A stretch of DNA of 40,804 nucleotides, from positions 1-40,804 of the forward strand of contig JAOBWK010000025.1 of the NCBI GenBank assembly GCA_025463305.1. Reading direction: 5' to 3'. Position 1 is the first letter of the stretch. Every line of letters begins with the position of its first letter. This stretch comes from Ilumatobacteraceae bacterium. Its GTDB lineage: Bacteria > Actinomycetota > Acidimicrobiia > Acidimicrobiales > Ilumatobacteraceae. The translations under genes and the position numbers were made by a program. The notes below the pieces were generated by a model that had not been told where the DNA came from, searched no databases, and saw only the letters and a list, made by a program, of their open reading frames with translations. Of this stretch, positions 6,503-26,911 are shown in pieces.

Positions 6503-7681
6503 ATGCTTCGTTACCTCACCGCCGGCGAATCCCACGGGCAGGCGCTCGTCGTCATCGTCGAGGGTCTCCCGGCCGGTCTCGAGATCACGGTCGAGGAGAT
6601 CCAGGCGGAGATGGCCCGTCGCCGGCTCGGCTACGGCCGCGGGCCGCGCCAGCGCTTCGAGGTCGACGAGCTGACGTTGGTCGGCGGCATCCGCCACGGT
6701 CGCACGCTCGGCTCCCCGGTGGCGATCGAGATCAAGAACTCCGAGTGGTTCCGCAGCGACAAGTGGCACGAGGAGATGTCGCCGGCACCCGGCGCGACGC
6801 TCGATCCGCTGACCCAGCCGCGCCCGGGTCACGCCGACCTCGCCGGGATGCAGAAGTACGGCTTCACCGACGCCCGCGACGTGCTCGAGCGGGCGAGCGC
6901 GCGTGAGACCGCCGCTCGCGTCGCGGCTGGCGCGCTGGCGAAGAAGCTGCTCGGCGCCATCGGCATCGGCATCCTCTCGCACGTGATCCAGATGGGCTCG
7001 GCCCGTTCGAAGTCCGGTGTCGAGGGCTCGCGCCTGCCGACGATGGCCGACCTGCCCGCGATCGACGAGTCGCAGGTGCGCTGCTTCGATGGGTCGGCGG
7101 AAGAGGCGATGATCGAGGAGATCAAGGCCGCTGCCAAGGACGGCGATTCGCTGGGCGGCATCGTCGAGGTGCTGGCCTACGGCGTGCCGGTCGGGCTCGG
7201 CAGCCACGTCCACTGGGACCGCAAGCTCGACGCGTTGCTCGCCCAGGCGGTGATGAGCATCCAGGCCGTCAAGGGCGTGGAGATCGGCGACGGGTTCGAG
7301 GTCGCCGGTCGGCGCGGCAGCGCCGCCCACGACGCCATCAGCTGGGACGCCGTCAACGGCACGTACCGTCGCGAGACCACGCTGGCCGGCGGTACCGAAG
7401 GTGGCATGACCACGGGCGAGGTCGTCGTCGTGCGCGCCGCGATGAAGCCGCTCGCCACGCTCAACCGGCCCACGCTCGGCACCGTCGACGTGATCACCAA
7501 GGAGGAGACCGTGTCGTTCAAGGAGCGCACCGACGTCACCGCCGTGCCGGCGATGGGCGTGGTGGCCGAGACGATGGTGGCCCTCGTGCTCGCGGCCGAG
7601 GCCCAGCGCAAGTTCGGCGGCGACTCGGTGGCCGAGTTCGTCCGCAACGCGCAGGCCTTCGACGCGTCGCTGCGCGGATGA
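6503..7681 (+). CDS. aroC: Chorismate synthase
   Basis: 392 residues, the standard size of the actinobacterial enzyme. It converts EPSP to chorismate using reduced FMN, the last shikimate-pathway step. Signatures: N-terminal MLRYLTAGESHGQALVVIVEG, RRRLGYGRGPRQR, RPGHADLAGMQKYG, the ARETAARVAAGA segment, and GGTEGGMTTGE near the C-terminus. ATG 6503 follows a 60-bp gap after aroE, the largest gap within the aro genes, so an internal promoter is possible. Its stop overlaps the aroK ATG (ATGA). Confidence 0.97.
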   Translation: MLRYLTAGESHGQALVVIVEGLPAGLEITVEEIQAEMARRRLGYGRGPRQRFEVDELTLVGGIRHGRTLGSPVAIEIKNSEWFRSDKWHEEMSPAPGATLDPLTQPRPGHADLAGMQKYGFTDARDVLERASARETAARVAAGALAKKLLGAIGIGILSHVIQMGSARSKSGVEGSRLPTMADLPAIDESQVRCFDGSAEEAMIEEIKAAAKDGDSLGGIVEVLAYGVPVGLGSHVHWDRKLDALLAQAVMSIQAVKGVEIGDGFEVAGRRGSAAHDAISWDAVNGTYRRETTLAGGTEGGMTTGEVVVVRAAMKPLATLNRPTLGTVDVITKEETVSFKERTDVTAVPAMGVVAETMVALVLAAEAQRKFGGDSVAEFVRNAQAFDASLRG

Positions 7682-8202
7682 GCCCGGCGGCCAGCCCGGT
7701 CGACGGCCGGCACCTGGTGCTGGTCGGGCTGATGGGATCCGGCAAGACCACCGTCGGGCGTGCCCTGGCGCAGCGGCTGGACCGAAAGCTGCTCGACTCC
7801 GACTTCATGATCGAGGCCCGTGAGGGCCGCACCGTGCGCTCCATCTTCCAGGAGGACGGCGAGGCCGCGTTCCGGAAGATCGAGACCGACGTGCTGATCG
7901 AGGCGCTCGCCGCCGACGAGAAGGCCGTCATCGCAGCCGCCGGCGGCGTCGTGCTGCGCGAGGAGAACCGCGCCGCACTGCGGGCCAGCGGCGCCCGGGT
8001 GGTGTGGCTGCGCGCCGACCCCGACACGCTCGTCGAGCGGGTCAAGGGCGGCGCCCACCGGCCGCTGCTCGACGACGATCCGCGTGGCACGCTGGAGCGG
8101 ATGGCCGCCGAACGAACCGATCTCTACCGCGAAGTGGCCGACGCGATCGTCACCGTCGACAACCGCTCGGTGAGCGAGGTCGTCGAGGCGGTGCTGCGGT
8201 GA
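7678..8202 (+). CDS. aroK: Shikimate kinase
   Basis: 174 residues; ATP-dependent phosphorylation of shikimate to shikimate 3-phosphate. The Walker A motif is GLMGSGKTTVGRALAQRL. The shikimate-binding acidic pair is in LLDSDFMIE, followed by FRKIETDVL and the AAGGGVVLREENR segment. The lid region with HRPLLDDDPRGTLERM and the adenine-binding end VDNRSVSEVVEAVL complete the fold. ATG 7678 overlaps aroC by 4 bp; the stop overlaps the aroB GTG by 3 bp. A compact, complete gene. Confidence 0.97.
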   Translation: MSPAASPVDGRHLVLVGLMGSGKTTVGRALAQRLDRKLLDSDFMIEAREGRTVRSIFQEDGEAAFRKIETDVLIEALAADEKAVIAAAGGVVLREENRAALRASGARVVWLRADPDTLVERVKGGAHRPLLDDDPRGTLERMAAERTDLYREVADAIVTVDNRSVSEVVEAVLR

Positions 8203-9215
8203 ACCGTACGGTCCGGGTCGACCTCGGCGAGCGCAGCTACGACGTGCTCGTCGGGCACGGCACCCGCGCCGAGCTCGCGGCGTTGCTGCCGCGGACGGCG
8301 AAGCGTGCCGCGATCATCACCCAGGAGGGCATCCCGCTCACCGTCGACGCGGGCGTGCCCACCGAGGTGTTCACGATCGGTGCCGGCGAGGAGCACAAGT
8401 CGCTGGCCACCATCGAGCGGCTGTGCGACGGATTCGCCGCGGCCGGCCTGACCCGCAACGACGTCGTGATCGGCGTCGGCGGTGGGATGGTCACCGACGT
8501 CGCCGGGTTCGCCGCTGCGTCGTGGCACCGCGGCATCCCGGTGGTGCACGTCTCCACGACGTTGCTCGGCATGGTCGACGCGGCGATCGGCGGTAAGACG
8601 GGTGTGAACCTGCGCGCCGGCAAGAACCTGGTCGGCGCGTTCTGGCAGCCGAGCGGTGTGATCTGCGACCTCGACGCGCTGGCCACGCTGCCGCCGCGCG
8701 AGATGCGCTGCGGCCTCGGCGAGATGGCCAAGTACCACTTCCTCACCGGCGACGACCTGCTCGCGATGGACCTCGTCGATCGCGTCGCGCGGTGCGTCGA
8801 GATCAAGGCCGCGATCGTCGGCGAGGACGAGCGCGAAGGCGGCCGTCGCGCGCTGCTGAACTACGGCCACACGCTGGCCCACGCGCTCGAGATCGCCGGC
8901 GACTTCACCCTCGCCCACGGTGAGGCCGTGGCCATCGGGCTCGTCTACGCGGCCCACCTCGCTCGCGTCCTCGGCCGGATCGACGATGCTCGCGTTGCCG
9001 CGCACTACGACGTCGTCGGGGGTGCGTACGAGCTCGACACCTCGCTGCCCGAGGTCGACCCCGCCCAGCTGCTGGCGTTGATGGGCCGCGACAAGAAGGC
9101 GCTCGACGGGCTGACGTTCGTGCTCGACGGAGCCGACGGGGTCGAGGTGGTAGCGGGCGTCGATCCCGGTGCCGCGCTCGAAGCGCTCACCGTGATGGCC
9201 GCCGCGTCCGCCTGA
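8199..9215 (+). CDS. aroB: 3-dehydroquinate synthase
   Basis: 338 residues. It cyclises DAHP to 3-dehydroquinate with NAD and a divalent metal, step 2 of the shikimate pathway. NAD-binding GVGGGMVTDVAGFAAA, substrate loop HVSTTLLGMVDAAIGGKTGV, NLVGAFWQPSGVICD, and metal-ligand histidines in LNYGHTLAHALE and LAHGEAVAIGL are all present. The frame is open upstream inside aroK, but GTG 8199 gives the expected N-terminus (VNRTVRVDLGERSYDVLVG) and a coupled GTGA junction. Slightly short (usual about 350-365) but intact. In many actinobacteria aroQ, pepQ, efp and nusB follow; here the operon ends and a surface protein gene follows. Confidence 0.97.
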   Translation: MNRTVRVDLGERSYDVLVGHGTRAELAALLPRTAKRAAIITQEGIPLTVDAGVPTEVFTIGAGEEHKSLATIERLCDGFAAAGLTRNDVVIGVGGGMVTDVAGFAAASWHRGIPVVHVSTTLLGMVDAAIGGKTGVNLRAGKNLVGAFWQPSGVICDLDALATLPPREMRCGLGEMAKYHFLTGDDLLAMDLVDRVARCVEIKAAIVGEDEREGGRRALLNYGHTLAHALEIAGDFTLAHGEAVAIGLVYAAHLARVLGRIDDARVAAHYDVVGGAYELDTSLPEVDPAQLLALMGRDKKALDGLTFVLDGADGVEVVAGVDPGAALEALTVMAAASA

Positions 9216-9246
9216 TCTGGGCCGGCTGAGCTGGGCGAACCTTTGA

Positions 9247-9252
9247 TTGACA
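9247..9252 (+). promoter_or_regulatory. Possible -35 element upstream of the sortase-DTR gene
   Basis: A perfect TTGACA lies in the 113-bp gap between aroB and the next gene. The best downstream -10 candidates, CCAGTA at 18-bp spacing or TAGGTT at 22-bp spacing, are poor, so this is only a hint of an independent promoter. Confidence 0.25.
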
Positions 9253-9328
9253 AGATTCGCTCAAGACCGTCCAGTAGGTTCTACGCCACGGTGCGGAACC
9301 CGGCGAGCCGGTACTGGTAGGACGGTAG

Positions 9329-11110
9329 TTGAGCGTGGAAGCAGACATCACACAGGGCATCGGCATGTCCCGACGCAGGATCCTGGCCATCGGCGCCGTG
9401 GCCCCGGTGGCGGCGTTGGCGACGGGTGGAGCCCTCGGCGGCCTCGGCCTCGTCGATCCCGCAGCGGCCGCGCGCCCGGCGGTGACGCTCCCGCAGAACG
9501 CATCGGCCTTCGTGTCCGTGCCGCCGTCGCGCCTCGCCGACACCCGACCGGACCGCAACGTCGGCGGCTACACGCGCATCGACGCGAACACGATCCGCGT
9601 CCAGATCGCCGGCCGCGGCGGGGTGCCCGCGACGGCGACGGCGGCGGTGCTGAACGTCACCGCGGTCAACACCACCCAGGGCGGCTTCGTCTCGGTGTAC
9701 CCGTCCGGCAGCACGCTGCCGAACATCTCCACCTTGAACGTCGAGGGTGCCGGCCAGGTCATCCCGAACCTCGTCACCGTGCGGCTCGGCGACGCCGGCT
9801 CGGTCGACGTCTACACCCAGAGCCCGGCCGACCTCATCGTCGACGTCAACGGCGCGTACACCCCGGTCACCGACGTCGTCTCGGCCGGTCGCTTCGTCGG
9901 CCTGCAGACCGCTTTCCGGGCCATCGACACCCGCACGCTGACCAAGGTCGGCATCGGCGGCGTGCAGCGCGTCGATGTGTCGGCCGTCGTGCCGGCGACG
10001 GCGTCGGCCGTCGTCGTCAACCTCACCGTCACCGAGTCCAACGGGGCCGGCTTCTGGACCGGCTACGCCGCCGGTGGCGCGCAGCCGAACTCGTCGAGCC
10101 TGAACACCGACGACGCCAACCAGACCCGCGCCAACCAGGCGATCCTGCCGATCGGAACGTTCGGCGCGAAGCGCGGCATCGACGTGTTCTCGTCGTCGGG
10201 CGGCCACCTCGTTGTCGACGTCGCCGGCTACTTCACCGGCACCGTCGACGCCGTCGGCTCCGACGGCCTGTTCGTGCCGAACGCTCCCTACCGCACGCTC
10301 GACACCCGCCAGGTGCCCAACTATGGCCGGATGTACGCCGGTTGGGTCGCCGAGTTCAACTACACCGGCAGCGCGACCTCGCAGGCCGTCGTCGTCAACC
10401 TGACCACCTCCGAGACGCGCGGTGCCGGCTACTTCACGGGCTACCCCGCCCGCACCGATCGTCCGTTGGCCTCGAACCTCAACGCGTCGACCAAGAACCA
10501 GACCGTCGCCAACCACGCGATCCTCCGGGTCTCCACCGCCGGCGTGGCCGTGTACACCCAGACCGGCGGCGATCTCATCGTCGACGTCGCCGGCTACTAC
10601 ATCGGCACCCCGGTCGCGGCCACGTTGCCGCAGGTCGTCAACATCATCCCGCCGCCCCCGCCGCCGTCGGCGCTGCCGTACGTGCTCGTCGCCCCCAACC
10701 TCGGCAAGCCCGGCCATGCGATCGCGAGCGCGACCGTGCTCGAGGGCGTCACGAGCAACATCGTCGATCCCGGCAACGTCGGCCACTGGCCCGGCACGGG
10801 CTTCGCCGGCGAGCAGAGCCACATGGTGCTGTTCGCTCACCGCACGACGAACATCGGACCGTTCTACAACCTCCACCTGCTCGGCGCCGGCGATCAGATC
10901 TCGTTGACCGGGTCCGACGGTCGGGTCTTCCACTACGGCTTCGTGCGCCGCGACCTCACCAGCGCCAACGCGCAGGAGATCTACAACGTCGGGCTCGTCG
11001 CACCGATCCCCAGCGTCTCGTTGGTGGCCTGCTCGCAGCCGAACTTCCTGCCGACGAACACCAAGTACCGCATCGTCGTCACGTTCACGCTGCTGTCCGT
11101 CGACGAGTGA
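9329..11110 (+). CDS. Tat-exported protein with three DTR modules and a C-terminal sortase domain
   Basis: 593 residues from TTG 9329; GTG 9335 or ATG 9365 are alternatives, and the last puts MSRRRILAIG at the N-terminus. That segment has a twin-arginine-like SRRRIL motif, then a hydrophobic stretch and AAARPA, suggesting Tat export. Three related modules follow (about residues 65-175, 180-306, 310-425), each with a DTR core, a LNVT or NLT strand and an ending like IVDVNG or VVDVAGYF. A proline-rich linker (about 436-450) leads to about 140 residues that fit a sortase: H504 in LFAHRTTN, C568 in SLVACS, R581 in TKYRIVV, the expected His-Cys-Arg order and spacing. Sortases join proteins to cell wall or to each other. 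The catalytic motif SLVAC departs from the usual TLxTC. No LPXTG substrate is seen in this window. Function beyond the fold is inferred. Confidence 0.8.
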   Translation: MSVEADITQGIGMSRRRILAIGAVAPVAALATGGALGGLGLVDPAAAARPAVTLPQNASAFVSVPPSRLADTRPDRNVGGYTRIDANTIRVQIAGRGGVPATATAAVLNVTAVNTTQGGFVSVYPSGSTLPNISTLNVEGAGQVIPNLVTVRLGDAGSVDVYTQSPADLIVDVNGAYTPVTDVVSAGRFVGLQTAFRAIDTRTLTKVGIGGVQRVDVSAVVPATASAVVVNLTVTESNGAGFWTGYAAGGAQPNSSSLNTDDANQTRANQAILPIGTFGAKRGIDVFSSSGGHLVVDVAGYFTGTVDAVGSDGLFVPNAPYRTLDTRQVPNYGRMYAGWVAEFNYTGSATSQAVVVNLTTSETRGAGYFTGYPARTDRPLASNLNASTKNQTVANHAILRVSTAGVAVYTQTGGDLIVDVAGYYIGTPVAATLPQVVNIIPPPPPPSALPYVLVAPNLGKPGHAIASATVLEGVTSNIVDPGNVGHWPGTGFAGEQSHMVLFAHRTTNIGPFYNLHLLGAGDQISLTGSDGRVFHYGFVRRDLTSANAQEIYNVGLVAPIPSVSLVACSQPNFLPTNTKYRIVVTFTLLSVDE

Positions 11111-11125
11111 TCGTCACGCACCGCG

Positions 11126-12889
11126 CTACGACACGTAGACGGTGCGGATCACCTCGTCGATGGTGGTGATGTCGTTCGCCACCATCGTCATCGCCTCGGT
11201 GCCCATCGTGCGCATGCCCTGCTGCTTGGCCACCTCGCGCACTGCGTGCGGCGTGGCGCGGTCGACGATCAGCTGACGGATCTCGTCGGTCACCTCGAGC
11301 ACCTCGTACACGCCGACGCGGTCGCGATAGCCGGTGTCGGAGCAGTAGTTGCACCCGGTGCCGCGGAAGAACTTCTCCTTCGGCAGACCGCCGAGGCGCT
11401 CGTACGCGCGCAGGTCCGCGGGGGAGGGGTCGTACGGCATCGTGCACGACGGGCAGATCTGGCGGACCAGCCGCTGGCCGACGACACCGACGATCGACGA
11501 TGACACCAGGAACGGCTCGATGCCCATGTCGAGCAGGCGGTACAGCGCCGAGCTCGCATCCGTGGCGTGCAGCGACGACATCACCATGTGCCCGGTGAGG
11601 GCCGACTGCACGGCGATGCGTGCCGTCTCCTCATCGCGGATCTCGCCGACCAGGATCACATCGGGGTCCTGGCGCAGGATCGACTTGAGGCCGCCGGCGA
11701 ACGTGACGTCGGCCTGGAGGTTGATCTGCATCTGGTTGACCGCCGGGAACACGTACTCGACCGGATCCTCGATGGTCATCACGTTGAGGTCGGTCCGGCT
11801 GATCTCGGCGAGCGTCGCGTACAGGGTGGTGGTCTTGCCCGACCCGGTCGGGCCGCTGCACAGGATCATCCCGTACGGCTTGTGCACGATCGACAGGTAG
11901 CGGTCGTGGCTCGCCGCGGGCATGCCCAGCTCGGACAGCTGCTTCATCGAGCGTGACTTGTCGAGCAGGCGGAGCACGGCGGTCTCGCCCCAGATCGTCG
12001 CGCCGGTGGCGACGCGGATGTCGACCCCGGTCCCGTCGATCACCATCGTGAACTGACCGTCCTGCGGGCGCCGCCGCTCGACGATGTCCATCTCGGCCAT
12101 GATCTTGATCCGGCTGACCAGCTCCGGCCCGGTCGAGGCCGGCAGGTCGAGCACCTCGCGCAGCGCGCCGTCGATGCGGTAGCGGATCCGTACTCGTCCG
12201 GCCGTCGGCTCGACGTGGATGTCCGACGCTCGGTCGCGCAGGCCCTGGGTGACGATCTTGTCGACGAGCCGGATGATCGGGGCGTCGCCGCCCGCTCCGC
12301 TGACGATCGCGTCGACCTCGATCTGGGCCTGGTGCGAGGCGGAGGCCCAGAGGTCCTTCACCGAGTCGTCGCCGACGGTGAGCACGCGGTAGTGCGTGTT
12401 CAACGCCATCGTGACGTCGCTCGGCGGCGCGAGGTAGACGTTGACGGAGTTGACGCGCAGCGAGGCGAGCGCGTTGCGCACCGCTGCACTGGAACCGTCG
12501 GAGATGGCTGCGTCGAGCACTCCATCGATCAGCCGCAACGGCACGATGTTGAACTCGCGGGCGACCGCCTCGGGCACCACCGCCAGTGCGTCGTCCGTCG
12601 GCTTCTCACGGCGGAGATCGACGGTCGGCAGGCCGAGCTGTGTCGCCAGCGCCCGGGTCAACGATCGTGAGTCGACCAAGCCCTGATCGACGAGGATCGC
12701 ACCGAGCTGACGGCCGGACTCCATCTGCAGGTTCAAGGCCGCGGCAAGCTGCTCGGGCGACAGCGCCTGCTCGGAGAGGAGCACGTCGCCGAGGCGCACC
12801 CGATCGTCGCGGGAGATCATCGGGGTCACGTCCGCGCTGACCACAGGCGGCGCGAAGATCGCTTCCTGCTTCTGCTGCCGGCGTTTCAT
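11126..12889 (-). CDS. pilB: Type IV pilus assembly/type II secretion ATPase (PilB/GspE)
   Basis: 587 residues from ATG 12889, which has AAGGAG 10 nt upstream. It is the cytoplasmic hexameric ATPase that drives pilus or pseudopilus extension. An N-terminal MshEN/T2SSE_N-like domain (about residues 25-190, LGDVLLSEQALSPEQLAAAL and GAILVDQGLVD) is followed by the ATPase domain. Visible motifs are SDIHVEPTAGRVRIRYRIDG, Walker A GPTGSGKTTTLYATL, the Asp box ending TIEDPVEY, Walker B DVILVGEIRDEETA and the His box SLHATDA. A C-terminal zinc-binding tetracysteine set, CPSC and CNYC, also typical, is present. MshEN domains often bind c-di-GMP, and a GGDEF-EAL gene lies at 24311. It is divergent from pilC; its stop faces the sortase gene stop 15 bp away. 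Confidence 0.95.
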   Translation of the reverse strand: MKRRQQKQEAIFAPPVVSADVTPMISRDDRVRLGDVLLSEQALSPEQLAAALNLQMESGRQLGAILVDQGLVDSRSLTRALATQLGLPTVDLRREKPTDDALAVVPEAVAREFNIVPLRLIDGVLDAAISDGSSAAVRNALASLRVNSVNVYLAPPSDVTMALNTHYRVLTVGDDSVKDLWASASHQAQIEVDAIVSGAGGDAPIIRLVDKIVTQGLRDRASDIHVEPTAGRVRIRYRIDGALREVLDLPASTGPELVSRIKIMAEMDIVERRRPQDGQFTMVIDGTGVDIRVATGATIWGETAVLRLLDKSRSMKQLSELGMPAASHDRYLSIVHKPYGMILCSGPTGSGKTTTLYATLAEISRTDLNVMTIEDPVEYVFPAVNQMQINLQADVTFAGGLKSILRQDPDVILVGEIRDEETARIAVQSALTGHMVMSSLHATDASSALYRLLDMGIEPFLVSSSIVGVVGQRLVRQICPSCTMPYDPSPADLRAYERLGGLPKEKFFRGTGCNYCSDTGYRDRVGVYEVLEVTDEIRQLIVDRATPHAVREVAKQQGMRTMGTEAMTMVANDITTIDEVIRTVYVS

Positions 12890-12899
12890 GACGTACGAG

Positions 12900-12905
12900 C
12901 TCCTT
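12900..12905 (-). promoter_or_regulatory. Ribosome binding site of pilB
   Basis: AAGGAG on the minus strand, 10 nt before ATG 12889. It fixes the start of pilB, since the same frame stays open for over 200 further codons upstream. Confidence 0.7.
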
Positions 12906-12915
12906 ATCTCCTCGA

Positions 12916-12935
12916 CTGTCTGCGGACGCAGACAG
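12916..12935 (-). promoter_or_regulatory. Near-perfect palindrome in the pilB leader
   Basis: Arms CTGTCTGCG and CGCAGACAG flank a 2-nt centre, 26 bp upstream of the pilB ATG. A 9-bp palindrome with a 2-nt centre looks more like a protein operator than an RNA hairpin, though a 7-bp stem with a 6-nt loop is possible. It may act on pilB alone or on the divergent pilB/pilC pair. Confidence 0.4.
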
Positions 12936-12966
12936 CGGGGCCCAGACCTCGAATATCGCCCATTCT

Positions 12967-13014
12967 CCGGTGGTTCTTGAGGAAGATCACACAGGAAGCA
13001 CACGGCGCCACCGG
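12967..13014. promoter_or_regulatory. Inverted repeat in the pilB-pilC divergent region
   Basis: CCGGTGG (12967-12973) and CCACCGG (13008-13014) are a perfect 7-bp inverted repeat separated by 34 bp. The 262-bp divergent region 12890-13151 otherwise holds no gene. It should contain both promoters, but I cannot place them confidently. The repeat could pair in RNA or be two binding half-sites. Confidence 0.3.
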
Positions 13015-13151
13015 TGTTGCGGATACACAAGAAATCGTCAACAAGCGTTGAGAACGGTCCTAGAGCGGAGGCCAGCCGCGCCGACAGAGACGTTCGTGCA
13101 CGCCTCCATCGTCCGTCTTCTCGCTCGCTGCGGCGCGCCGGCGGTGCAGCG

Positions 13152-14366
13152 ATGAGGCGCGCCGGCGCACCGACGCTCCCCGCACCGATCGCCTCGCTCG
13201 ACGGATCGTCGGAGGAGATCGCCGCGGCGCACGACGCCGCGGCCGGCAGTTCGCCCGAGCCCCGCGAGCCGAAGCCGCCACGGGACTCGTCGTGGCTGCG
13301 TTCGCAGTTCACGTTCAGCATCGGTCGCTCGGTCAAGGGCGACGTGGTGATGGCGTTCTCCCGCCAACTGGCCTCGTTCCTGGAGGCCGGCATCCCGGTG
13401 CTCGAGGCGTTGGAGATCGTCGGCGAGGAGACCGCCTCGGAGCCGATGCGCGTCGTCATCGACGAGATCAAGGAATCGATCCAGCGCGGGATGAGCTTCG
13501 CCGATGCGGTGGCCGTGCACCCCAAGGTCTTCCCGTCGTACTACCGGGCAATGGTCATGTCGGCCGAGTACACCGGCCGTCTCGACACCGTCCTCAGCCA
13601 GCTCGCCGCCTACCTCGAACGCGACCTCGGTGCGCGCCGCCAGGTCAAGAGCGCGCTGACGTATCCATGCGTGGTCCTCGGCGTCGCCGTGATCGCGATG
13701 ATCGTGATGTCGCTGTTCGTGCTCCCGAAGTTCAGTGGTCTGTACAAGAGCCTCGGGGCCAAGCTGCCGCTGCCGACGCGGATGCTGCTCGGCATCACCG
13801 ACTTCCTCACCAAGGGCTGGCCGATCCTGCTCGGCGGGATCGGGTTGATCTGGATGGCGACGTACGCGCTCATCGGGGGCGAGCGTGGCAAGGAGCGACG
13901 CGACCGGGCGACGATGCGCCTGCCGGTCATCGGCAACCTCTTCCACCTGATCTCGCTCGAGCGGTTCTGCCGTGTCCTGTCCGCCCTCGCGACGGCCGGC
14001 GTGCCGCTGCCCGATGCGATCGAGGTCTCCGCGGACAGCACCAACAACTCGATCTTCCAGCGCAAGCTCGCCGTGGTGCGCGACGTCCTGATCCGCGGCG
14101 GCGGGCTGTCGATGCCGATCATCGAGTCGGGCATCTTCCCCGTCGCGGCCCGGCAGATGATCCGCGTCGGTGAGCGCACCGGTGCGCTCGGCACGCAGCT
14201 CTCCAAGGCCTCCAGCTACTACGAGCGCGAGGTCACCTTCCACATCAAGCGGGCCACCGACATGTTCGAGCCGATGGTGATCCTCATCGTCGGCCTGATC
14301 GTCGGCTTCGTCGCCGTCGCCCAGGTGGCCGCGATGTACAGCATCTTCGGCCAGGTCAAGCACTGA
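13152..14366 (+). CDS. pilC: Type IV pilus/type II secretion inner-membrane platform protein (PilC/GspF)
   Basis: 404 residues. PilC/GspF is the polytopic platform through which the PilB ATPase drives pilin assembly. After an Ala/Pro-rich cytoplasmic N-terminus (about 1-65) there are two T2SSF domains. The first starts at FSRQLASFLEAGIPVLEALE (about 72) and the second at LERFCRVLSALATAGVPLPDAIE (about 275), as usual for the family. Hydrophobic segments are visible at about 175-195, 225-245 and at the C-terminus (MVILIVGLIVGFVAVAQVAAMYSIF). The conserved ending is intact. ATG 13152 is chosen because the upstream open region is low-complexity and lies in the divergent leader. It is transcribed away from pilB and towards the pilin genes. 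Confidence 0.94.
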   Translation: MRRAGAPTLPAPIASLDGSSEEIAAAHDAAAGSSPEPREPKPPRDSSWLRSQFTFSIGRSVKGDVVMAFSRQLASFLEAGIPVLEALEIVGEETASEPMRVVIDEIKESIQRGMSFADAVAVHPKVFPSYYRAMVMSAEYTGRLDTVLSQLAAYLERDLGARRQVKSALTYPCVVLGVAVIAMIVMSLFVLPKFSGLYKSLGAKLPLPTRMLLGITDFLTKGWPILLGGIGLIWMATYALIGGERGKERRDRATMRLPVIGNLFHLISLERFCRVLSALATAGVPLPDAIEVSADSTNNSIFQRKLAVVRDVLIRGGGLSMPIIESGIFPVAARQMIRVGERTGALGTQLSKASSYYEREVTFHIKRATDMFEPMVILIVGLIVGFVAVAQVAAMYSIFGQVKH

Positions 14367-14458: not shown

Positions 14459-14866
14459 ATGAACAACACCACGAGCGCACCCATCGAGGGCGACATCATC
14501 GAGACGACCAGCAAGGGTCGGGACCGGGGCTTCACGCTCGTCGAGATCCTGATCGCGATCGTGCTGGTCGGCATCTTGTCGGCCGTCGTGGTCGTCGGCA
14601 TCGGCAACCTCACGAGCCAGGGATCGGCGTCGGCCTGCACGGCGTCGCTCGACGCCTCCAAGGCCGGCACGGTCGTGTACTACGCGGCGCATGGCAACGC
14701 CTACCCGACGGACTTCACCCAGCTCACCGACGGCACCAACTCGCCGGCCGCGCTGACGCTGCCGTCGGGTGCCACGGTCAACGGGCTCACCGTCAAGCAG
14801 GGGACGTGGACCCTCACGATGACGCCGAGCACGGGCGGCGCAGCGCCGACCTTCGCCTGCAGCTGA
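14459..14866 (+). CDS. Type IV pilin, probable major subunit
   Basis: 135 residues with a class III (prepilin) signal. A 24-residue hydrophilic leader ends in DRG24, followed by FTLVEILIAIVLVGILSAVV with the conserved Glu at mature position 5 (E29). Prepilin peptidase would cut after G24 and the helix would form the fibre core. The short globular part (about residues 60-135) has two cysteines, in SACTAS and the C-terminal FACS, suitable for a disulfide-closed D-region. The motif YYAAHGNAYPTDFTQLTDG resembles pseudopilin beta regions. It has a strong RBS and sits behind a hairpin that separates it from pilC. It is called major because it is first, smallest and best translated; this is inference. 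Confidence 0.9.
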   Translation: MNNTTSAPIEGDIIETTSKGRDRGFTLVEILIAIVLVGILSAVVVVGIGNLTSQGSASACTASLDASKAGTVVYYAAHGNAYPTDFTQLTDGTNSPAALTLPSGATVNGLTVKQGTWTLTMTPSTGGAAPTFACS

Positions 14867-14897: not shown

Positions 14898-15269
14898 ATG
14901 CGCGAGGGGAAGGACCGCGGGGAGACCCTGATCGAGATCGTGCTCACCGTCGTGATCACGTCGATCACGGTCTCCGCGCTCGTCTCCAGCCTCGCCACGG
15001 CCGGATCGGCCGGCCAGGCCCAGCGTGACCACGCCGCGGCCGACATCGTGATGCGCAACTACGCCGAGGCCACCAAGCTGGCGGCGTCGTCGTGCGTCGA
15101 AGGGGGCACCTACACCGTGGCGTACGTGCCGCCGGCGGGCTACACGCTGACGGCCGATCCGGCGGACGCGGCGTGCCCCGATGTCGATGCCGTGCGCCAG
15201 CTCACCCTGCACGTGCAGCAGCCGTCGGGGGAGACGGACTCGATGCAGATCGTGGTGCGCACGCCATGA
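14898..15269 (+). CDS. Minor pilin-like protein with prepilin-type N-terminus
   Basis: 123 residues. The start MREGKDRG is followed directly by ETLIEIVLTVVITSITVSALVSSL, a prepilin signal with Glu rather than Phe after the cleavage Gly (G8) and the conserved Glu five residues in. This GETLIE form is common in actinobacterial pilin-like proteins. The globular part is short, with two cysteines (SSCVEG and AACPDV) and an ending in QPSGETDSMQIVVRTP. No specific family was recognised. ATG 14898 is 31 bp after the pilin stop with a weak AGGAA upstream. Its stop overlaps the next start (ATGA), so the three downstream proteins are likely made together as a minor-pilin set. Confidence 0.8.
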   Translation: MREGKDRGETLIEIVLTVVITSITVSALVSSLATAGSAGQAQRDHAAADIVMRNYAEATKLAASSCVEGGTYTVAYVPPAGYTLTADPADAACPDVDAVRQLTLHVQQPSGETDSMQIVVRTP

Positions 15270-15766
15270 TCGGCGCAGCCGACCGGGCTCACCGGCACGA
15301 CGATCGCGGCGCGGCACTGCTGCTCGCGATCGGCTTCGTGGTGATGATCGGCGCGATCAGCGCCGGGCTCGCCGCCATGGTGACATCCGGCGTGACCAAC
15401 CAGACCACGCTCGTCGCCGTGCGCGACCGGCAGTACGCCGCCGACGGCGCGGTCGAGACGGCGATCGCGGAGGTCCGCCACGACATCACCGTGAACGGCA
15501 GCGACTGTTCATCGGCGGCCGGCGTGACGCGGGTGCACCTCGACGATGTCGACGTGCGCGTCGACTGGCGCAACGACTGCGGCGTGGTCCGCACCGCCGA
15601 CGGCTTCGTGGTGGCGCGGCGAGACGTCGCGTTCGACGCCTGCATCGACGCAGGCGCGTCGTGCTCGAGTGCGGACACGATCATCAACGCGGTCGTCGCG
15701 TTCGATCAGGACAGCTCCGGCACGGTCACCCACACGGCGGTGCAGTCGTGGAGCGTCCTGCGATGA
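15266..15766 (+). CDS. Membrane-anchored minor pilin-like protein (PilX-like)
   Basis: 166 residues from ATG 15266, overlapping the preceding stop by 4 bp. A short basic N-terminus ends in DDRGAALLLAIGFVVMIGAISAGLAAMV, a single hydrophobic helix. The DRGAALL entry recalls PilX-type minor pilins, which often have degenerate prepilin signals and lack the Glu5. The remainder (about 45-166) is soluble, rich in beta-like sequence, and has several cysteines (SDCSSA, NDCGVV, DACIDAGASCSS) that could form disulfides outside the cell. No family-level match was recognised; the role is inferred from position between two prepilin-like genes. Its stop overlaps the next start (ATGA). Confidence 0.75.
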   Translation: MIGAADRAHRHDDRGAALLLAIGFVVMIGAISAGLAAMVTSGVTNQTTLVAVRDRQYAADGAVETAIAEVRHDITVNGSDCSSAAGVTRVHLDDVDVRVDWRNDCGVVRTADGFVVARRDVAFDACIDAGASCSSADTIINAVVAFDQDSSGTVTHTAVQSWSVLR

Positions 15767-18700
15767 GCGCGCGGGTGCGGGTGCGCGATGCGGGCTTCAC
15801 GCTCGTCGAGCTGCTGATCGCGATCGTGCTCAGCGGCATCATCGGCGGGGTGACGGTGGCCGCGATGTCGACATCGTTGAACGTCGCCAGTTCCACCTCC
15901 GAAGAGGTCGCCGACACCACCGATGCCGGGTTGATCTCAGCGTTCCTCATCCGCGATGCGCAGGCGTCCGGGCCCGCCACGTCGTCATCGTCCGGCGCCT
16001 CCAGCGACCTCGGTGTGTCGACGGCGGCCAGCGGCGTGAACTGGTCCGGCTGCACCCAGCCGGGCGCGTTCGTGGCCCGCTTCAGCTGGCCGGACCCGGA
16101 CACGCTGCACAGCGGACGAGTCGTGGTGGCGACGTACGCGCTCGACGCCGATCAACAGCTCACCCGGCGGATCTGCCAGAACGGCGCGTCGACCGACCTC
16201 GTCCTCGGGCACAGCGTCGCCGTCGCCACCGCGGCCTGCCTGCCCGACGCGCAGTGCACCGATCCCGGCGGCTCCGTCGCGTTGAGCCTGCGCGGCACCG
16301 GAGCGCGGATCCCGTTCGACTACACGCTCACCGCGACGCTGCGCGTCAACGCCCAGACGCGCGCCACGTCGGCCAACTCCTCGCCCGTCGCGCTGGTCGC
16401 ACTCGGTGATCCGGGCTCGACGCGGCCCTGTCCCAACCTCACCCTCGGCGGGGCGGCCCGACTGACCGTGCTCGGCGACGTGGTGGTGGGGTCGGACTGT
16501 GGCGCGCAGCCGATCGCCGGCGACCGCCACCAGCTCGCCGCCACCGGCTCGGTCAGCACGCCCACCGGGGTGAGCGATCCGTTCGCCGACATCGCCGCCC
16601 CCTCGGAGCCGTGCAGCGGCGCGGCGAACCCGTCGCCCGTCGGCAACCAACCCGATTCCTCGCACGCGGTGGTGTACCCGCTGCCGGTCTCGATCACGAG
16701 CGCGGTGCAGTTCCAGCCGGGCACGTACATCTTCTGTGCCGGCCTCGATGTCGGCGTCGGCGCGACGGTGGTCGGCAGCGACGTGCTCCTCGTCGTCGCC
16801 GGCGGCACGCTGAGCATCAGCGATCAGGCGTCGGTGCACTTGACCGCGAAGCGCGACGGCGATCACGCCAACCTGGTCGCGTGGATCACCACCGCACAGC
16901 GAGTGGCCCTCCACGGTGGCACGACGGCTGACACCCTCGACGGCTACGTCTACGCACCGACCTCGCAGGTGGTCATCGACGGCGCCGGCAGCTGGAACAT
17001 CGGCGGTGTCGTCGCCCAAGGCCTGTCGGTCAGCGGCAGCACGTCGACCCGGCTCGGCATCCCCGTGCCCGCCGTGACGATCACGGTGCCGACGCTGCCG
17101 GCCGGTGAGGTCGGCGTCGGATGTGCGCCGGTCACGCTCACCGCGTCCGGTGGCACGGCCCCGTACCGTTGGGTGGCGAGCGGATTGCCGGACGGCCTCG
17201 CGCTCGACCCGGTCTCAGGCACGATCTCCGGGACGCCGACCCGCGCCGGCACGTTCGACGTCGTCGTGACCGCGTTCGACGCAACCCAGGCGGCGTCGTC
17301 GAGCTCGTTCTCGATGTCGGTCACACCGGCGCTCGCGGTCACCGGGCCGGCGTCGCTGCCGAACGGTGAGGTCGGCGTCGTCTACCCGTCGCCCGTGGCG
17401 ACGTCATCGGGCGGCACGTTGCCCGTGACCTGGAGCGCGAGCGCGCTGCCCGCCGGTCTGGCGATCGGTCCCTCGACCGGCGCGATCACGGGCACACCCA
17501 CCGCGGCCGGCACCTTCGCGGTCGTCGTGTCCGCTCGTGACGCCGTCGGCGCCATGGCGAGTCGGTCGCTGTCGCTGACCATCGCGCCGGCACTCGCGAT
17601 CACGACGGCGACCCTGCCGGCTGGGCAGGCCGGGGCGAGCTACCCGAGCACGGCCGTGCAATCGTCCGGCGGGACGGCCGCGTACCAGTGGTCGGCGAGC
17701 GGGCTGCCGGTCGGGCTGTCGATGGACACCACCGGTTCCCTGTCGGGTACGCCGACGACCGCCGGCACGTACACCGTCGTGGTGCAGGTCACCGACGCGA
17801 TGTCGGCGACGGCGTCGGCGACGTACACCCTCACCGTCGGTGCGGCGCTGGCCGTCGGCACCACGGCGCTGCCGAACGGTGATGTCCGAACCCCCTATCC
17901 GGCCACGGCACTGACGACGTCGGGCGGCACCGCGCCGTACACCTGGTCGGCGGTCGGCCTGCCCGCCGGGCTGTCGCTCGACCCGGCCACCGGCGTGCTC
18001 TCCGGCACGCCGACAGCCGCCGGCACGTCGACGATCCAGGTCACCGTCGTCGACGCGGTGGCGGCGGCATCGTCGGCGCAGTACTCGATGACGATCAACC
18101 AGCTGCCGGTGATCACGGGTCCGGCCAGCCCGCCCGCCGCGCAGGTCGGCGTCGCCTACCCGTCGACCCAGATCACCACGTCCGGCGGCACGTACCCGTT
18201 CACCTGGGTGGCGACGGGCCTGCCGGCGGGCATGTCGATCGACGGCGCGAGCGGCGTGGTGTCGGGCACGCCGACCACGGCCGGATCGTCGCACGTCCAC
18301 GTCACGGCCACGGACGCGCTCGGGGCCGTCGCCGCCGCGGACACCACCTTCGTGGTCAACTCACCCGTGAGCATCACCACGTCGAGCTTGGCCTCCACCC
18401 AGCTCGGCGCCAACTACTCGGCGACGCTCGCGGCCACTGGCGGCACGACGCCGTACACGTGGTCCGCCACCGGTCTGCCGTCCGGCCTGACCATCAGCGC
18501 GGCCGGCGTCATCTCCGGGACACCGACCGCGGCCGGAACGTTCTCGGTGATCGCCAAGGTGGTCGACACCGGTTCGCGCACGGCGACCGCGAGCCTGAGC
18601 CTGTTCGTCAGCTCCGTCCCGGCCGGCTGCCCGGCGAACCCCGCTGGCTGGCGCGCCGAGTACTACAGCAACGGCTCGCTGACCGGCACGGCGACGCTGT

Positions 18701-19419
18701 GCCGCGACGACGCTGCGGTCAACTTCAACTGGGGAACCGGCTCGCCGGCGACGGGCCTGCCGGTGGACAACTTCTCGGTCCGCTGGACCCGCACGCAGAC
18801 CTTCGCGGCTGGCGACTACATCTTCTCGATGGGCAACGACGACGGTGGCCGGCTGTACATCGACGGCACGTTGGTGCTCGACAAGTGGTCGGACCAGTCC
18901 TACCCGTCCACGGTGCCGAGCGTGACCGAAACGCTCGCGGCCGGCGATCACACGATCGTGATGGAGTACTACGAGCGAGGCGGCAACGCCCAGGCCACCC
19001 TGTCGTGGGCGGCGTACGTCCCCGTGACGTGCCCGTCGAACCCCGCTGGCTGGGTCGGTCAGTACTACGCCAACATCTCGCTGTCCGGCACGCCCGTCAT
19101 GTGTCGCGACGACTCGGCGATCAACTTCGACTGGGGGAGCGGCTCGCCCGACTCGACGGTGCCGTCGGACAACTTCTCCATCCGCTGGACCCGCACCAAG
19201 ACCTTCACCGCCGGCACCTACACGTTCACGCTCGGCACCGACGACGGTGGCCGGCTGTACATCGATGGCACGCTGGTGCTCGACAAGTGGAACGATCAGG
19301 GCTACCCGAGTCCGCAACCGTCGGTCACCCGCACGCTGACGGCGGGGGCGCACACGCTGGTCGTCGAGTACTACGAGCGCGGCGGCGGCGCGAAGGCGAC
19401 CCTGGTCCAGAGCCCCTGA
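15763..19419 (+). CDS. Giant prepilin-like adhesin: class III signal, six He_PIG repeats, two PA14 domains
   Basis: 1218 residues from ATG 15763, overlapping the previous stop. The N-terminus MSARVRVRDAG is followed by FTLVELLIAIVLSGIIGGVTVAAM, a canonical prepilin signal with Glu at position 5. Residues about 30-215 look like a pseudopilin head with cysteines. Residues about 221-437 are a Gly/Val-rich beta region (LGGAARLTVLGDVVVGSDCG, DGYVYAPTSQVVIDG) resembling polymer-forming folds. Residues about 438-952 hold six putative Ig (He_PIG) repeats with the core SGLPxGLxxDxxxGxxSGTP. Two PA14-like domains end the protein (about 955-1082 and 1090-1218), each with a CPxNPAGW entry, a CRDD cysteine and NDDGGRLYIDG or TDDGGRLYIDG. 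PA14 domains commonly bind sugars. A pilus-tip or surface adhesin is the likely role, by inference. No second membrane or wall anchor is seen. Confidence 0.88.
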   Translation: MSARVRVRDAGFTLVELLIAIVLSGIIGGVTVAAMSTSLNVASSTSEEVADTTDAGLISAFLIRDAQASGPATSSSSGASSDLGVSTAASGVNWSGCTQPGAFVARFSWPDPDTLHSGRVVVATYALDADQQLTRRICQNGASTDLVLGHSVAVATAACLPDAQCTDPGGSVALSLRGTGARIPFDYTLTATLRVNAQTRATSANSSPVALVALGDPGSTRPCPNLTLGGAARLTVLGDVVVGSDCGAQPIAGDRHQLAATGSVSTPTGVSDPFADIAAPSEPCSGAANPSPVGNQPDSSHAVVYPLPVSITSAVQFQPGTYIFCAGLDVGVGATVVGSDVLLVVAGGTLSISDQASVHLTAKRDGDHANLVAWITTAQRVALHGGTTADTLDGYVYAPTSQVVIDGAGSWNIGGVVAQGLSVSGSTSTRLGIPVPAVTITVPTLPAGEVGVGCAPVTLTASGGTAPYRWVASGLPDGLALDPVSGTISGTPTRAGTFDVVVTAFDATQAASSSSFSMSVTPALAVTGPASLPNGEVGVVYPSPVATSSGGTLPVTWSASALPAGLAIGPSTGAITGTPTAAGTFAVVVSARDAVGAMASRSLSLTIAPALAITTATLPAGQAGASYPSTAVQSSGGTAAYQWSASGLPVGLSMDTTGSLSGTPTTAGTYTVVVQVTDAMSATASATYTLTVGAALAVGTTALPNGDVRTPYPATALTTSGGTAPYTWSAVGLPAGLSLDPATGVLSGTPTAAGTSTIQVTVVDAVAAASSAQYSMTINQLPVITGPASPPAAQVGVAYPSTQITTSGGTYPFTWVATGLPAGMSIDGASGVVSGTPTTAGSSHVHVTATDALGAVAAADTTFVVNSPVSITTSSLASTQLGANYSATLAATGGTTPYTWSATGLPSGLTISAAGVISGTPTAAGTFSVIAKVVDTGSRTATASLSLFVSSVPAGCPANPAGWRAEYYSNGSLTGTATLCRDDAAVNFNWGTGSPATGLPVDNFSVRWTRTQTFAAGDYIFSMGNDDGGRLYIDGTLVLDKWSDQSYPSTVPSVTETLAAGDHTIVMEYYERGGNAQATLSWAAYVPVTCPSNPAGWVGQYYANISLSGTPVMCRDDSAINFDWGSGSPDSTVPSDNFSIRWTRTKTFTAGTYTFTLGTDDGGRLYIDGTLVLDKWNDQGYPSPQPSVTRTLTAGAHTLVVEYYERGGGAKATLVQSP
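17074..18618 (+). repeat. Six tandem He_PIG-type Ig-like repeats
   Basis: Six repeats of about 255-261 bp (85-87 residues) inside the giant prepilin-like gene. Each has a LPxGxxGxxY-like opening, SGGTxPYxW, SGLPxGLS, a SGTPTxAGT turn and a final VTxxDAxxxxAS strand. Repeats are diverged from one another, so the array is old rather than a recent expansion. Confidence 0.85.
18625..19416 (+). repeat. Two tandem PA14-like domains
   Basis: Two closely similar domains of about 130 residues at the C-terminus of the giant prepilin-like protein, 18625-19010 and 19030-19416. Both contain VRWTRTQTF or IRWTRTKTF, DDGGRLYIDGTLVLDKW and VxEYYERGG. The strong similarity points to a fairly recent internal duplication. 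Confidence 0.85.
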
Positions 19420-24258: not shown

Positions 24259-24279
24259 CTCAAGCTCCGTGCTCTTGAG
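24259..24279 (+). promoter_or_regulatory. Small hairpin in the GGDEF-EAL leader
   Basis: CTCAAG and CTTGAG pair across a 9-nt loop, 31 bp before the ATG at 24311. Together with the larger nested structure upstream it makes a two-hairpin leader. Weak alone. Confidence 0.3.
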
Positions 24280-24310
24280 GCCGATATCCGTAGTGCGGAG
24301 GCAAGCACGG

Positions 24311-26911
24311 ATGACGACGGACGAGATCGCGGAACGACCCGAATCGGTGGCGCACACGCGCCACCGGCTCGGCGCGCACGGCCGTACGGCCGTGTTGTCG
24401 ATCGTCCTCGCGGCCGGTGCTGCCGCGCTGCTGACGCGGGTGCGGCTCGACGTCGGCCCGATGGACGGCGTGCGGTTGCAGTGGTGGGTCATCGCACTGA
24501 TCTCGGTCGCCGCCGAGTTCATGGTGTTCAACATCGAGTTCCGGCGCGACGTCTACACGTTCACGTTCAGCGAGATCCCGCTCGTGGTCGGGCTGCTGCT
24601 CGCCTCACCGCTGCACCTCATCATCGGCCGGCTCGTCGGTGAGGCCGTCTTCCTGATCGTCAAGGAGCGTCAGCCGCTGCGCAAGCTGTCGCTGAACCTC
24701 TCGTCGTTCTTCGGCGAGTGCGTGGTGCTGCTGCTCTGCTACCAGCTGCTCCACGGCGTGCGCACGATGGAGCAGCCGACGATGTGGCTGCGTGCCCTCG
24801 GCGCCGTCGTCGTGGCCGACCTGCTCGGCTTCATGGTCGTCGCCCTCGCCGTGCGCTGGCACGGCGGCAAGCTCCAGTTCCGCTCCATCCTCGCGATCGG
24901 CGCGTTCACCGCCCCGGTCAACACCAGCTTCGCCCTGCTGACCGGGCTCGTGCTCACCGAGCAGCTGTGGGGCTTGCTCCTCATGGGCGGCATCGCCACG
25001 TTCCTGGTCATCACGTATCGCTCCTACGCGTCACTCACCCAACGCTTCGACAGCCTCACCCAGCTCTACGACTTCACCCGGCTGGTCAGCGGGTCCCAGG
25101 GCCCCGACGTCGTCCTCGCCTCGATCCTCGGTCAGGCCAAGGAGCTGTTCAACGCGGACCGGGCCGAGATCTGGCTGTTCGACACCTCCGACGCGCTGGT
25201 CGGCCTCGCCGTCGACGACGAGGGCCAGACCTCTCGCCACCGCACCTCGCTGACCGCCGGCGACGTCACCGCATGGTTCGCCGATTCACGCGACGCGAAG
25301 GTGATCGCCGCCGGGTCCCAGCCGCGCCAGCCGACTGCGATCAAGACCGCGCTGCACGCGCGCAACTGCATCGTCGCGCCCATCACCGAATCGGGCGACG
25401 TGGTGGGCGTGGTCGCCGTCATCGACCGTCTCGGCGAGCGCGGCTACCGCGCCCAGGAGGCGCCCCTGTTCTCCACGCTCGCCAACCACGCCAGTGTCGC
25501 CCTCGAGAACGGCAGGCTGATCGACCGCCTGCACGACCAGACGCGCGAGCGCGAGCACGAGTCCCTGCACGACGCGCTCACGAGCCTGCCGAACCGACGC
25601 CTGTTCCAGTCGCGCGTCGACGAGGCCGTCGCCGGCTTGGCCACCAGCGTCGATCACGCCGCGGTCGCGGTCATGAACCTCGACGGCTTCAAGGAGATCA
25701 ACGACACGCTCGGTCACGCGTGCGGCGACGCCGTGCTGGTCGAGGTCGCCCAACGACTCGACCGGATGGTCGATGCGTCGATGAGCGTCGCCCGCCTCGG
25801 CGGCGACGAGTTCGGCCTGCTGTTCTCGCCGCTGCACCTCCGCTCCGAGCTCGCCGCGGTCATCCAGGACATCCGCCGCGACCTGGCCCGCCCGATCACC
25901 ATCGACGGCATCGACATCAACGTCTCGGCGAGCTGCGGTGTCGCCGTCGCCCCCGACGACGCCAGCGACGGGTCCACGCTCCTGCAGCGCGCCGACGTCG
26001 CGATGCACGATGCCAAGGCCGGCGTCGGCGACGGCATCGCGTTCTACGACGCCGACATGGACACCAACTCGACCCGCCGGCTCACGCTCGTCAACGGGCT
26101 CAACGCGGCCATCGAGAACGGCGAGCTCAGCGTCGTCTACCAGCCCAAGGTCAACCTCGCCACCACGTCGGTCGTCGGTTTCGAGGCCCTGGTCCGTTGG
26201 CGCCATCCCACGCTCGGCCCGATCGGTCCCGACGAGTTCATCCCGCTCGCCGAGCGCTCGGGGATGATCCACCAGCTCACCGAGCACGTGCTGCGCACCG
26301 CGCTGCGCCAGGTCACCGAGTGGCGCCTGGCCGGGCACGACTGGAGCGTCGCCGTCAACCTGTCGATGCGCAACCTGCTCGACGACGACATCGTCGGCAT
26401 CGTCGCCGACGCGCTCGAGTCCAGCGGCATCCCGCCGCGCAAGCTCACCCTCGAGGTCACCGAGACCCACGTCATGGCCGATCCGGCGCGCACGATCGCC
26501 GTGCTCGAGCAGCTGTCGGCGCTGGGGCCGCGGCTGTCGGTCGACGACTTCGGCACCGGCTACTCGTCGCTCGCGTACCTGCAGCGGCTGCCGGTCGACG
26601 AGGTCAAGATCGACAAGTTCTTCGTGCTCTCGATGGCCGGCGACGACGGCGCTGAGGCGATCGTGCGCTCGGTGCTCGACCTGGCCCGCAACCTCGGCCT
26701 GCATTCGGTCGCCGAGGGCGTCGAGGACCGGGACTCGTTCGATCGCCTGGTCGGCCTCGGCTGCGCCGAGGCGCAGGGCTACTTCATGTCGCGACCGATG
26801 CCGGCCGACCAGACGCTCGACGCCCCCCGCATCCTCGCCGACGTGCTCGCCGCGAGTGAGCCGGCGGAGGCGCCCGCTGCGGCACCGCTGGCCGCCGCCA
26901 CGGCCCACTGA
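24311..26911 (+). CDS. Membrane GAF-GGDEF-EAL protein (c-di-GMP turnover)
   Basis: 866 residues from ATG 24311. The N-terminal part (about 20-235) has several transmembrane helices, probably a membrane sensor. A GAF domain follows (about 255-410). The GGDEF domain has the intact active-site motif G497-G-D-E-F501, so diguanylate cyclase activity is possible; the RxxD inhibitory I-site upstream is absent. The EAL domain begins with E625-A-L in GFEALVRWRHP and retains NLSMRNL, EVTETHVM, DDFGTGYSSLAYL, KIDKFF, AEGVED and AQGYFMSRP, so phosphodiesterase residues are also present. c-di-GMP often controls pili and surface adhesion; the pilB at 11126 is a possible target in the window. The Ala-rich end is a normal tail. 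The ATG is chosen because the upstream extension lies within the structured leader. Confidence 0.93.
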   Translation: MTTDEIAERPESVAHTRHRLGAHGRTAVLSIVLAAGAAALLTRVRLDVGPMDGVRLQWWVIALISVAAEFMVFNIEFRRDVYTFTFSEIPLVVGLLLASPLHLIIGRLVGEAVFLIVKERQPLRKLSLNLSSFFGECVVLLLCYQLLHGVRTMEQPTMWLRALGAVVVADLLGFMVVALAVRWHGGKLQFRSILAIGAFTAPVNTSFALLTGLVLTEQLWGLLLMGGIATFLVITYRSYASLTQRFDSLTQLYDFTRLVSGSQGPDVVLASILGQAKELFNADRAEIWLFDTSDALVGLAVDDEGQTSRHRTSLTAGDVTAWFADSRDAKVIAAGSQPRQPTAIKTALHARNCIVAPITESGDVVGVVAVIDRLGERGYRAQEAPLFSTLANHASVALENGRLIDRLHDQTREREHESLHDALTSLPNRRLFQSRVDEAVAGLATSVDHAAVAVMNLDGFKEINDTLGHACGDAVLVEVAQRLDRMVDASMSVARLGGDEFGLLFSPLHLRSELAAVIQDIRRDLARPITIDGIDINVSASCGVAVAPDDASDGSTLLQRADVAMHDAKAGVGDGIAFYDADMDTNSTRRLTLVNGLNAAIENGELSVVYQPKVNLATTSVVGFEALVRWRHPTLGPIGPDEFIPLAERSGMIHQLTEHVLRTALRQVTEWRLAGHDWSVAVNLSMRNLLDDDIVGIVADALESSGIPPRKLTLEVTETHVMADPARTIAVLEQLSALGPRLSVDDFGTGYSSLAYLQRLPVDEVKIDKFFVLSMAGDDGAEAIVRSVLDLARNLGLHSVAEGVEDRDSFDRLVGLGCAEAQGYFMSRPMPADQTLDAPRILADVLAASEPAEAPAAAPLAAATAH

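Follow-up and report, generated by a model that had tools for sequence, protein, structure and literature searches.

Worked examples of surface attachment by monoderm type IV pili are few. In one of them, that of Streptococcus sanguinis, the lectin pilin PilC (52.8 kDa, with a concanavalin A-like lectin module) is stabilized by PilA, a GspI-like pilin lacking the glutamate at position 5 (Glu5) (PMC9934059), and PilB of the same species carries a vWA domain (PMC8179133). The class of modular pilins was named in 2021 (Raynaud et al., PMC8179133), with PA14 (IPR011658) and PF05345 among its 15 commonest architectures. A solenoid like that of ice-binding proteins is found in ComZ of Thermus thermophilus (6qvi), a DNA-binding minor pilin which adjoins another small pilin and was argued to be located at the tip (PMC6561018). 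PA14 lectins are known from very large RTX adhesins (MhPA14, 6m8m; MpPA14) held by a type I secretion system. Here, we analyzed contig JAOBWK010000025.1 (40,804 nucleotides; "the window" denotes this whole stretch), in which one gene of an Ilumatobacteraceae-like actinobacterium probably encodes a modular minor pilin that binds glycans as an adhesin at the tip of a type IV pilus.

By sequence profile and predicted fold, this protein (termed the adhesin below) combines a class III leader, a J-type pilin domain, a beta-solenoid, a stalk of six immunoglobulin (Ig)-like repeats and two PA14 domains with DcisD aspartates, and its gene follows that of a Glu5-less pilin. It thereby resembles the PilC/PilA pair of S. 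sanguinis, in which a modular pilin with a lectin-type module also goes with a Glu5-less partner; the adhesin's partner is GspI-like in predicted fold and encoded directly before it. In contrast to S. sanguinis PilC, the adhesin has a PA14 pair instead of a concanavalin A-like module (no such lectin domain appeared in its Pfam list down to E 0.05), interposes a solenoid and six Ig repeats between pilin and head, and has a computed mature mass of 120 kDa. Like the modular pilins, it joins an N-terminal pilin to non-pilin modules. However, neither a solenoid with six He_PIG repeats and a PA14 pair nor one carrier with differing heads is mentioned in the available text of PMC8179133, and this build was not found in the open-licence literature. 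With ComZ it shares, in the model, a solenoid on a minor pilin adjoining a small pilin. The ComZ solenoid, in contrast, lies between the penultimate and last strands of a GspK-like fold, a placement absent from the adhesin model, and an Ig stalk or PA14 head is not described in the available text of PMC6561018. The PA14 domains are of the DcisD type and sit on a very large adhesin, as in RTX adhesins, but here on a pilin. Since modular pilins with PA14 and PF05345 were already published, the novelty lies in the build: a fixed carrier made of a J-type pilin and a ComZ-like solenoid, a long Ig stalk, a PA14 pair, a Glu5-less partner, and heads differing between relatives. The ComZ solenoid, the PilA/PilC pair and the PA14 lectins, three separate observations, are thus joined in one protein. 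The adhesin would extend a known but little-tested mode of pilus stickiness and offer a second example, from Actinobacteria and quite unlike that of S. sanguinis, with a bounded conserved carrier, a nucleator-like partner and known lectin-type heads.

Domain architecture of the adhesin

The reading frame extends from an ATG at 15763 to a stop codon at 19417-19419 without internal stops. GGAG is present at 15750-15753, 5' of the start codon, which shares the ATGA at 15763-15766 with the stop codon of the gene before it. A first-pass annotation, made from the sequence by a model, had described a 1218-residue frame with a canonical prepilin N-terminus (Glu at +5). The frame proved intact, and the N-terminus scored above the cut-offs of both N_methyl (Pfam; residues 8-30, 27.0 bits versus 21.2) and the prepilin domain TIGR02532 (NCBIfam; residues 10-30, 21.6 bits versus 16.3). 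All marks of a class III signal peptide are present, namely Gly before the predicted cleavage site, Glu5 and a hydrophobic stretch; the N-terminal helix contains the most hydrophobic 19-mer of the protein (2.45, compared with at most 1.83, at residue 328, beyond residue 45). A sortase-anchored fibrillar adhesin was rejected as a candidate, as no LPxTG-type motif occurs within the last 60 residues.

Structure prediction, proposed earlier as a check, yielded a minor-pilin fold behind the leader, and thus the N-terminal pilin module of modular type IV pilins. This fold is predicted to be of the J type (GspJ/PilW), to which the presence of Glu5 also conforms; 5bw0_G and 3cfi_B were assigned as J partners on the grounds that the I-type model of the preceding gene's product is matched by their sister chains. 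The J-type minor pseudopilins GspJ, XcpW and EpsJ, which work in the type II secretion system (T2SS), are not known to carry such C-terminal modules as the adhesin has. In the adhesin model, pilin strands stop at about residue 192 and solenoid strands span residues 209 to 431, a region matched in part by DUF7305 (Pfam; residues 334-427, 28.3 bits versus a cut-off of 27). Behind it, He_PIG reached 250.2 bits over six stretches and PA14 126.3 bits over two (Pfam cut-off 24 in both cases). These are domains not specific to pili, and they fit the ranges 438-952 (PF05345) and 955-1218 (PF07691) to which the first-pass annotation had assigned them. As sequence evidence, the N_methyl, TIGR02532, He_PIG and PA14 scores are far from chance; together with twelve homologues of the pilin-solenoid part (see below), they exclude a chance open reading frame or a frame error.

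The solved sequences closest to the PA14 pair are clostridial PA14 pairs, 6qe7 (RsgI3; E 8.4e-35) and 6qdi (E 1.9e-33), each matching in two stretches; unlike the pair on the adhesin, that of 6qe7 belongs to an anti-sigma-I factor. RsgI3 presumably senses biomass, which is consistent with the title of PMC4711584. When domain 2 was aligned to MhPA14, in which Asp136/137 are calcium-1 ligands and Asp181 is a further ligand (PMC6650083), the DcisD aspartates fell on a DD of the adhesin and Asp181 on a Glu. Across 30 PA14 domains of the family (L063 excluded), the DcisD pair was DD in 28 and ND in 2, and the third acidic ligand was Glu in 26, Asp in 2, Gln in 1 and a gap in 1. With both the PF07691 profile and the aspartate pair of PA14 lectins present, we infer that the PA14 pair may bind sugar in a calcium-dependent manner. 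With the pair alone as query, 744 of 7999 scored proteins reached E ≤ 1e-30. Sources named many of the 120 matches listed as glucose/arabinose dehydrogenase or PKD repeat protein; Chloroflexi, Blastocatellia and Actinobacteria were among the few taxa given. The head is therefore a widespread module, and this search pointed to no ligand. PA14 is counted among adhesive domains in a paper on fibrillar adhesins, whose available text does not mention pilins.

The carrier and its differing stalks and heads

Relatives were sought with residues 1-440, i.e., the pilin and solenoid parts (the carrier). Among 7991 scored candidates, 13 proteins including the window's own were recovered. The other twelve showed 34-65% identity; two of them spanned less than half of the carrier, and two bore the label Ilumatobacteraceae. 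A contig search yielded at least 11 loci, with one strong match in an Acidimicrobiales metagenome-assembled genome (L001) and ten short matches at the pilin end. Of 397 genomes in the order sample, 15 matched at 1e-10, and in three (G001, G339 and, at E 1e-29, G013) the match spanned almost the entire carrier; in the family sample (221 genomes), 16 matched at 1e-15 in 19 places, with two carriers each in G589, G590 and G595. These 19 places and the distant G013 (L064) made up the 20 regions examined. A plasmid copy was discarded, since none of the 124 plasmid records matching the adhesin covered more than 80% of it; the 20 places listed all fell within residues 407-1002, chiefly in the Ig repeats.

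Pfam scans of 17 relative proteins revealed several payloads behind the carrier. The combination of prepilin and PA14, which had been suggested as a search target, was present in family genomes, with He_PIG and a PA14 pair in L046, L047 and L065; L063 has the same stalk and head but lacks the pilin part. Others carried He_PIG with one PA14 (L049), He_PIG with PF20597 and PA14 (L052, L054, L057), He_PIG with Big_7 (L050), ten He_PIG with cadherin-like modules (L051), Big_7 (L056, L058, L059), nine Big_3_5 (L064) or fn3 (L053, L055). Contig ends cut L048, L060, L061 and L062 before the head, and L051 and L054 inside it. In P0012, a stalk with cadherin-like modules follows the pilin directly, apparently without a solenoid.

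In a tree of 28 carriers (L060, L062 and L063 left out; P0012, L064 and L061 on unsure long branches), the window grouped with L047 and L065 in a starred clade; these three all combine six He_PIG repeats with a PA14 pair. The sequences differ clearly in payload between clades: pilin and solenoid stay fixed as the carrier, and stalk and head vary between lineages. Over 26 labelled rows, eight author-labelled payload states required 9 changes, and PA14 presence 3. As the minimum possible for the eight states is 7, repeated exchange is only weakly supported, and independent gains of one head are not clearly indicated. These natural differences separate the structural part from the part that may set the ligand.

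Three further arrangements were observed. In the 19-kb regions of the orphan carriers L053 and L055 (∼2,180 residues, with fn3 repeats), pilin genes like those of the window are lacking, and the genome of each also has an operon copy. The L063 frame (7132-9747, plus strand) encodes a solenoid-stalk-PA14 part with carrier residues 278-440 only; an antisense PilB fragment overlaps its start, and the locus is rearranged or misassembled. P0105, a relative of the Glu5-less pilin P0014 whose N-terminus is missing, has one PA14 fused straight on; PA14 thus occurs here on more than one pilin type.

Pilus genes in the window and in carrier genomes

The adhesin gene is the last of an operon-like plus-strand run comprising a pilC homologue, a PilA-like pilin gene and two small pilin genes (Table 1). 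This run, the strong profiles and the minor-pilin fold support the proposal of the first-pass annotation that the prepilin is a pilus adhesin. Among the three small pilin-like genes, only that of the PilA-like pilin passed the N_methyl cut-off. The product encoded directly before the adhesin matched no Pfam or NCBIfam pilin family and was recognized as a pilin by predicted fold only; this fold is GspI-like, and Glu5 is absent from the window copy and from 17/17 relative copies (read by eye), as in the S. sanguinis PilA type of partner. An assignment to the K type was dropped, the predicted fold being I-type. No separate K-like gene was identified beside the adhesin, and the 14898-15269 gene, whose stop overlaps the start of the Glu5-less pilin gene as ATGA, was left untyped. 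Its predicted mature start, ETLIE, is unusual in having Glu at +1. This residue is usually Phe; in relative copies of this pilin it is Glu or Asp in 16 of 17 (the L056 copy was not matched by the motif).

Table 1. Pilus-related genes of the window and parts of the adhesin
Feature	Position	Strand	Basis
PilB extension ATPase, divergent, with MshE-type cyclic-di-GMP domain; exact start not fixed	11126..13012	-	Pfam T2SSE, MshEN
PilC platform protein (T2SSF)	13014..14366	+	PF00482, E 8.6e-54
PilA-like pilin, 135 residues, probable major pilin	14459..14866	+	Pfam, NCBIfam
Small prepilin-like protein, 123 residues, Glu at +1 and +5	14898..15269	+	N_methyl 17.8 bits, below cut-off 21.2
Glu5-less minor pilin, 166 residues, predicted GspI/S. 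sanguinis PilA-like fold	15266..15766	+	Fold comparison
Probable modular minor pilin/tip adhesin, 1218 residues	15763..19419	+	Reading frame, Pfam, homologue search, fold comparison
Class III leader, residues 1-11, last residue Gly; predicted mature start FTLVE (Glu+5)	15763..15795	+	Reading frame, N_methyl, TIGR02532
Pilin domain, residues 12-204, predicted J-type (XcpW/EpsJ-like) fold	15796..16374	+	Structure model
Beta-solenoid, residues 205-436, DUF7305; predicted ice-binding-protein/ComZ fold	16375..17070	+	Pfam, structure model
Stalk, six He_PIG Ig-like repeats, residues about 438-952	17074..18618	+	PF05345, six stretches, E 1.5e-75
PA14 domain 1, residues about 957-1083, DcisD aspartates present	18631..19011	+	Pfam, structure-sequence match, motif count
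PA14 domain 2, residues about 1095-1218, DcisD aspartates present	19045..19416	+	Pfam, alignment to MhPA14, motif count

The same order recurred in the relatives: both small pilins preceded the carrier in 17 of the 20 regions, and pilC preceded them in 15 of these 17, the remaining two lying at contig ends. The MshE-type domain of the window PilB (NF053729) scored 56.5 bits versus a cut-off of 38. A GAF-GGDEF-EAL protein is encoded elsewhere in the window (24269-26911, plus strand), and these two features may reflect control of pilus extension by cyclic-di-GMP.

Machinery outside the window was read from relatives only, namely the 16 family genomes with a carrier. Prepilin peptidase was found in 15 of these and PilT, above its cut-off, in all 16. 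Secretin was found in none of the 16, which is a likeness to S. sanguinis and led us to reject a T2SS. PilO was also found in none (in the control it was insensitive, at 2/14), nor was PilM (4/221 in the family; control 9/14). These absences are soft, because genome completeness was not given. A further pilus locus, with PilT, prepilin peptidase, a PilC and a PilB, is present in G594. The relative G001 encodes a second giant prepilin with a vWA domain (1224 residues; L069:2392-6066, minus strand), whose start is overlapped by a small prepilin-like gene. Kin of this protein at 1e-30 occurred in 44/221 family genomes, including 12 of the 16 with a carrier (vWA was confirmed in the G001 protein alone), and in G591, G592 and G593 they lay near a second PilB on the same contig.

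Competing readings and other content of the window

If the adhesin acts as we propose, prepilin peptidase would cleave it after Gly11. The Glu5-less pilin would start the filament and pair with the J-type adhesin, as S. sanguinis PilA does with the lectin pilin PilC, and PilB and PilC would push these two out first. The solenoid, stalk and PA14 pair would thereby come to lie at the pilus tip, where the PA14 pair may bind vicinal sugar hydroxyls via calcium, on a polysaccharide or another cell. PilT, seen in relatives only, would pull the pilus back. This operon logic for the tip had not been part of the first-pass annotation, nor had the solenoid at residues 205-436, the varying payload or the published modular pilins with PA14 and PF05345. 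A wider reading, which we regard as tentative and rather doubtful, is that the Glu5-less nucleator and the J-type pilin with its ComZ-like solenoid form a standing tip platform of monoderm pili, a fixed socket that would be the counterpart of the PilY1 tip of diderms. Whole adhesin shafts would be exchanged behind it (PA14 pair, solenoid-adhesive plus PA14, Big_7, cadherin-like or fn3). Since relatives have a second pilus locus with kin of a vWA-headed modular pilin, a single cell could conceivably bear two retractable pili, the first directed at sugars and the other at proteins. It counts against our interpretation that both PilT and the second pilus come from relatives and that vWA was confirmed in a single protein.

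The J-type fold, which is common to T2SS pseudopilins, could also mean that the adhesin is part of a short pseudopilus like that of a T2SS, or a surface protein held in the membrane as a pseudopilin, its helix uncleaved or periodically extruded and no long pilus being formed. The window PilC, whose best NCBIfam model is GspF (284.9 bits, under the cut-off of 424), and the failure to find PilM and PilO in carrier genomes would agree with this. In contrast, the window PilB scored best against the type IV PilB equivalog (518.9 bits, cut-off 675.65) rather than GspE (512.8 bits), both below cut-off, and PilT in 16/16 with secretin in 0/16 carrier genomes fits a monoderm pilus better. The monoderm Com pilus is described as requiring no more than peptidase, ATPase, platform and pilins for its assembly (PMC12153270). 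We consider a pseudopilus unlikely. Just as improbable, in our estimate, is a ComZ-like DNA receptor, in which the solenoid pilin would capture DNA during natural transformation, with the PA14 pair doing no more than tethering the tip to matrix or cells. The ComZ solenoid is inserted before the last strand of a GspK-like pilin, whereas that of the adhesin is modelled behind a J-type pilin, and a PA14 pair with conserved sugar-site aspartates would be unneeded for binding DNA. The ComEC family (PF03772) matched all 16 carrier genomes but is uninformative, since it also matched 10 of 14 control genomes, Escherichia coli included. That the solenoid binds ice or another crystalline surface is hardly credible: its predicted fold is that of ice-binding proteins, but also that of the DNA-binding pilin ComZ, no ice-binding family appeared among the Pfam matches of the adhesin down to E 0.05, and the solenoid lies between pilin and stalk instead of at the end.

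As for the rest of the window, Pfam identified alaS, ruvX, mltG, aroE, aroC, aroK and aroB upstream, and no RNA or tRNA features were found at default thresholds. Between aroB and pilB, a 593-residue protein with a C-terminal sortase domain is encoded at 9329-11110 (plus strand). At 27001-30021 (plus strand), a 1006-residue protein with five fn3 stretches and without a prepilin family match is possibly another surface protein.
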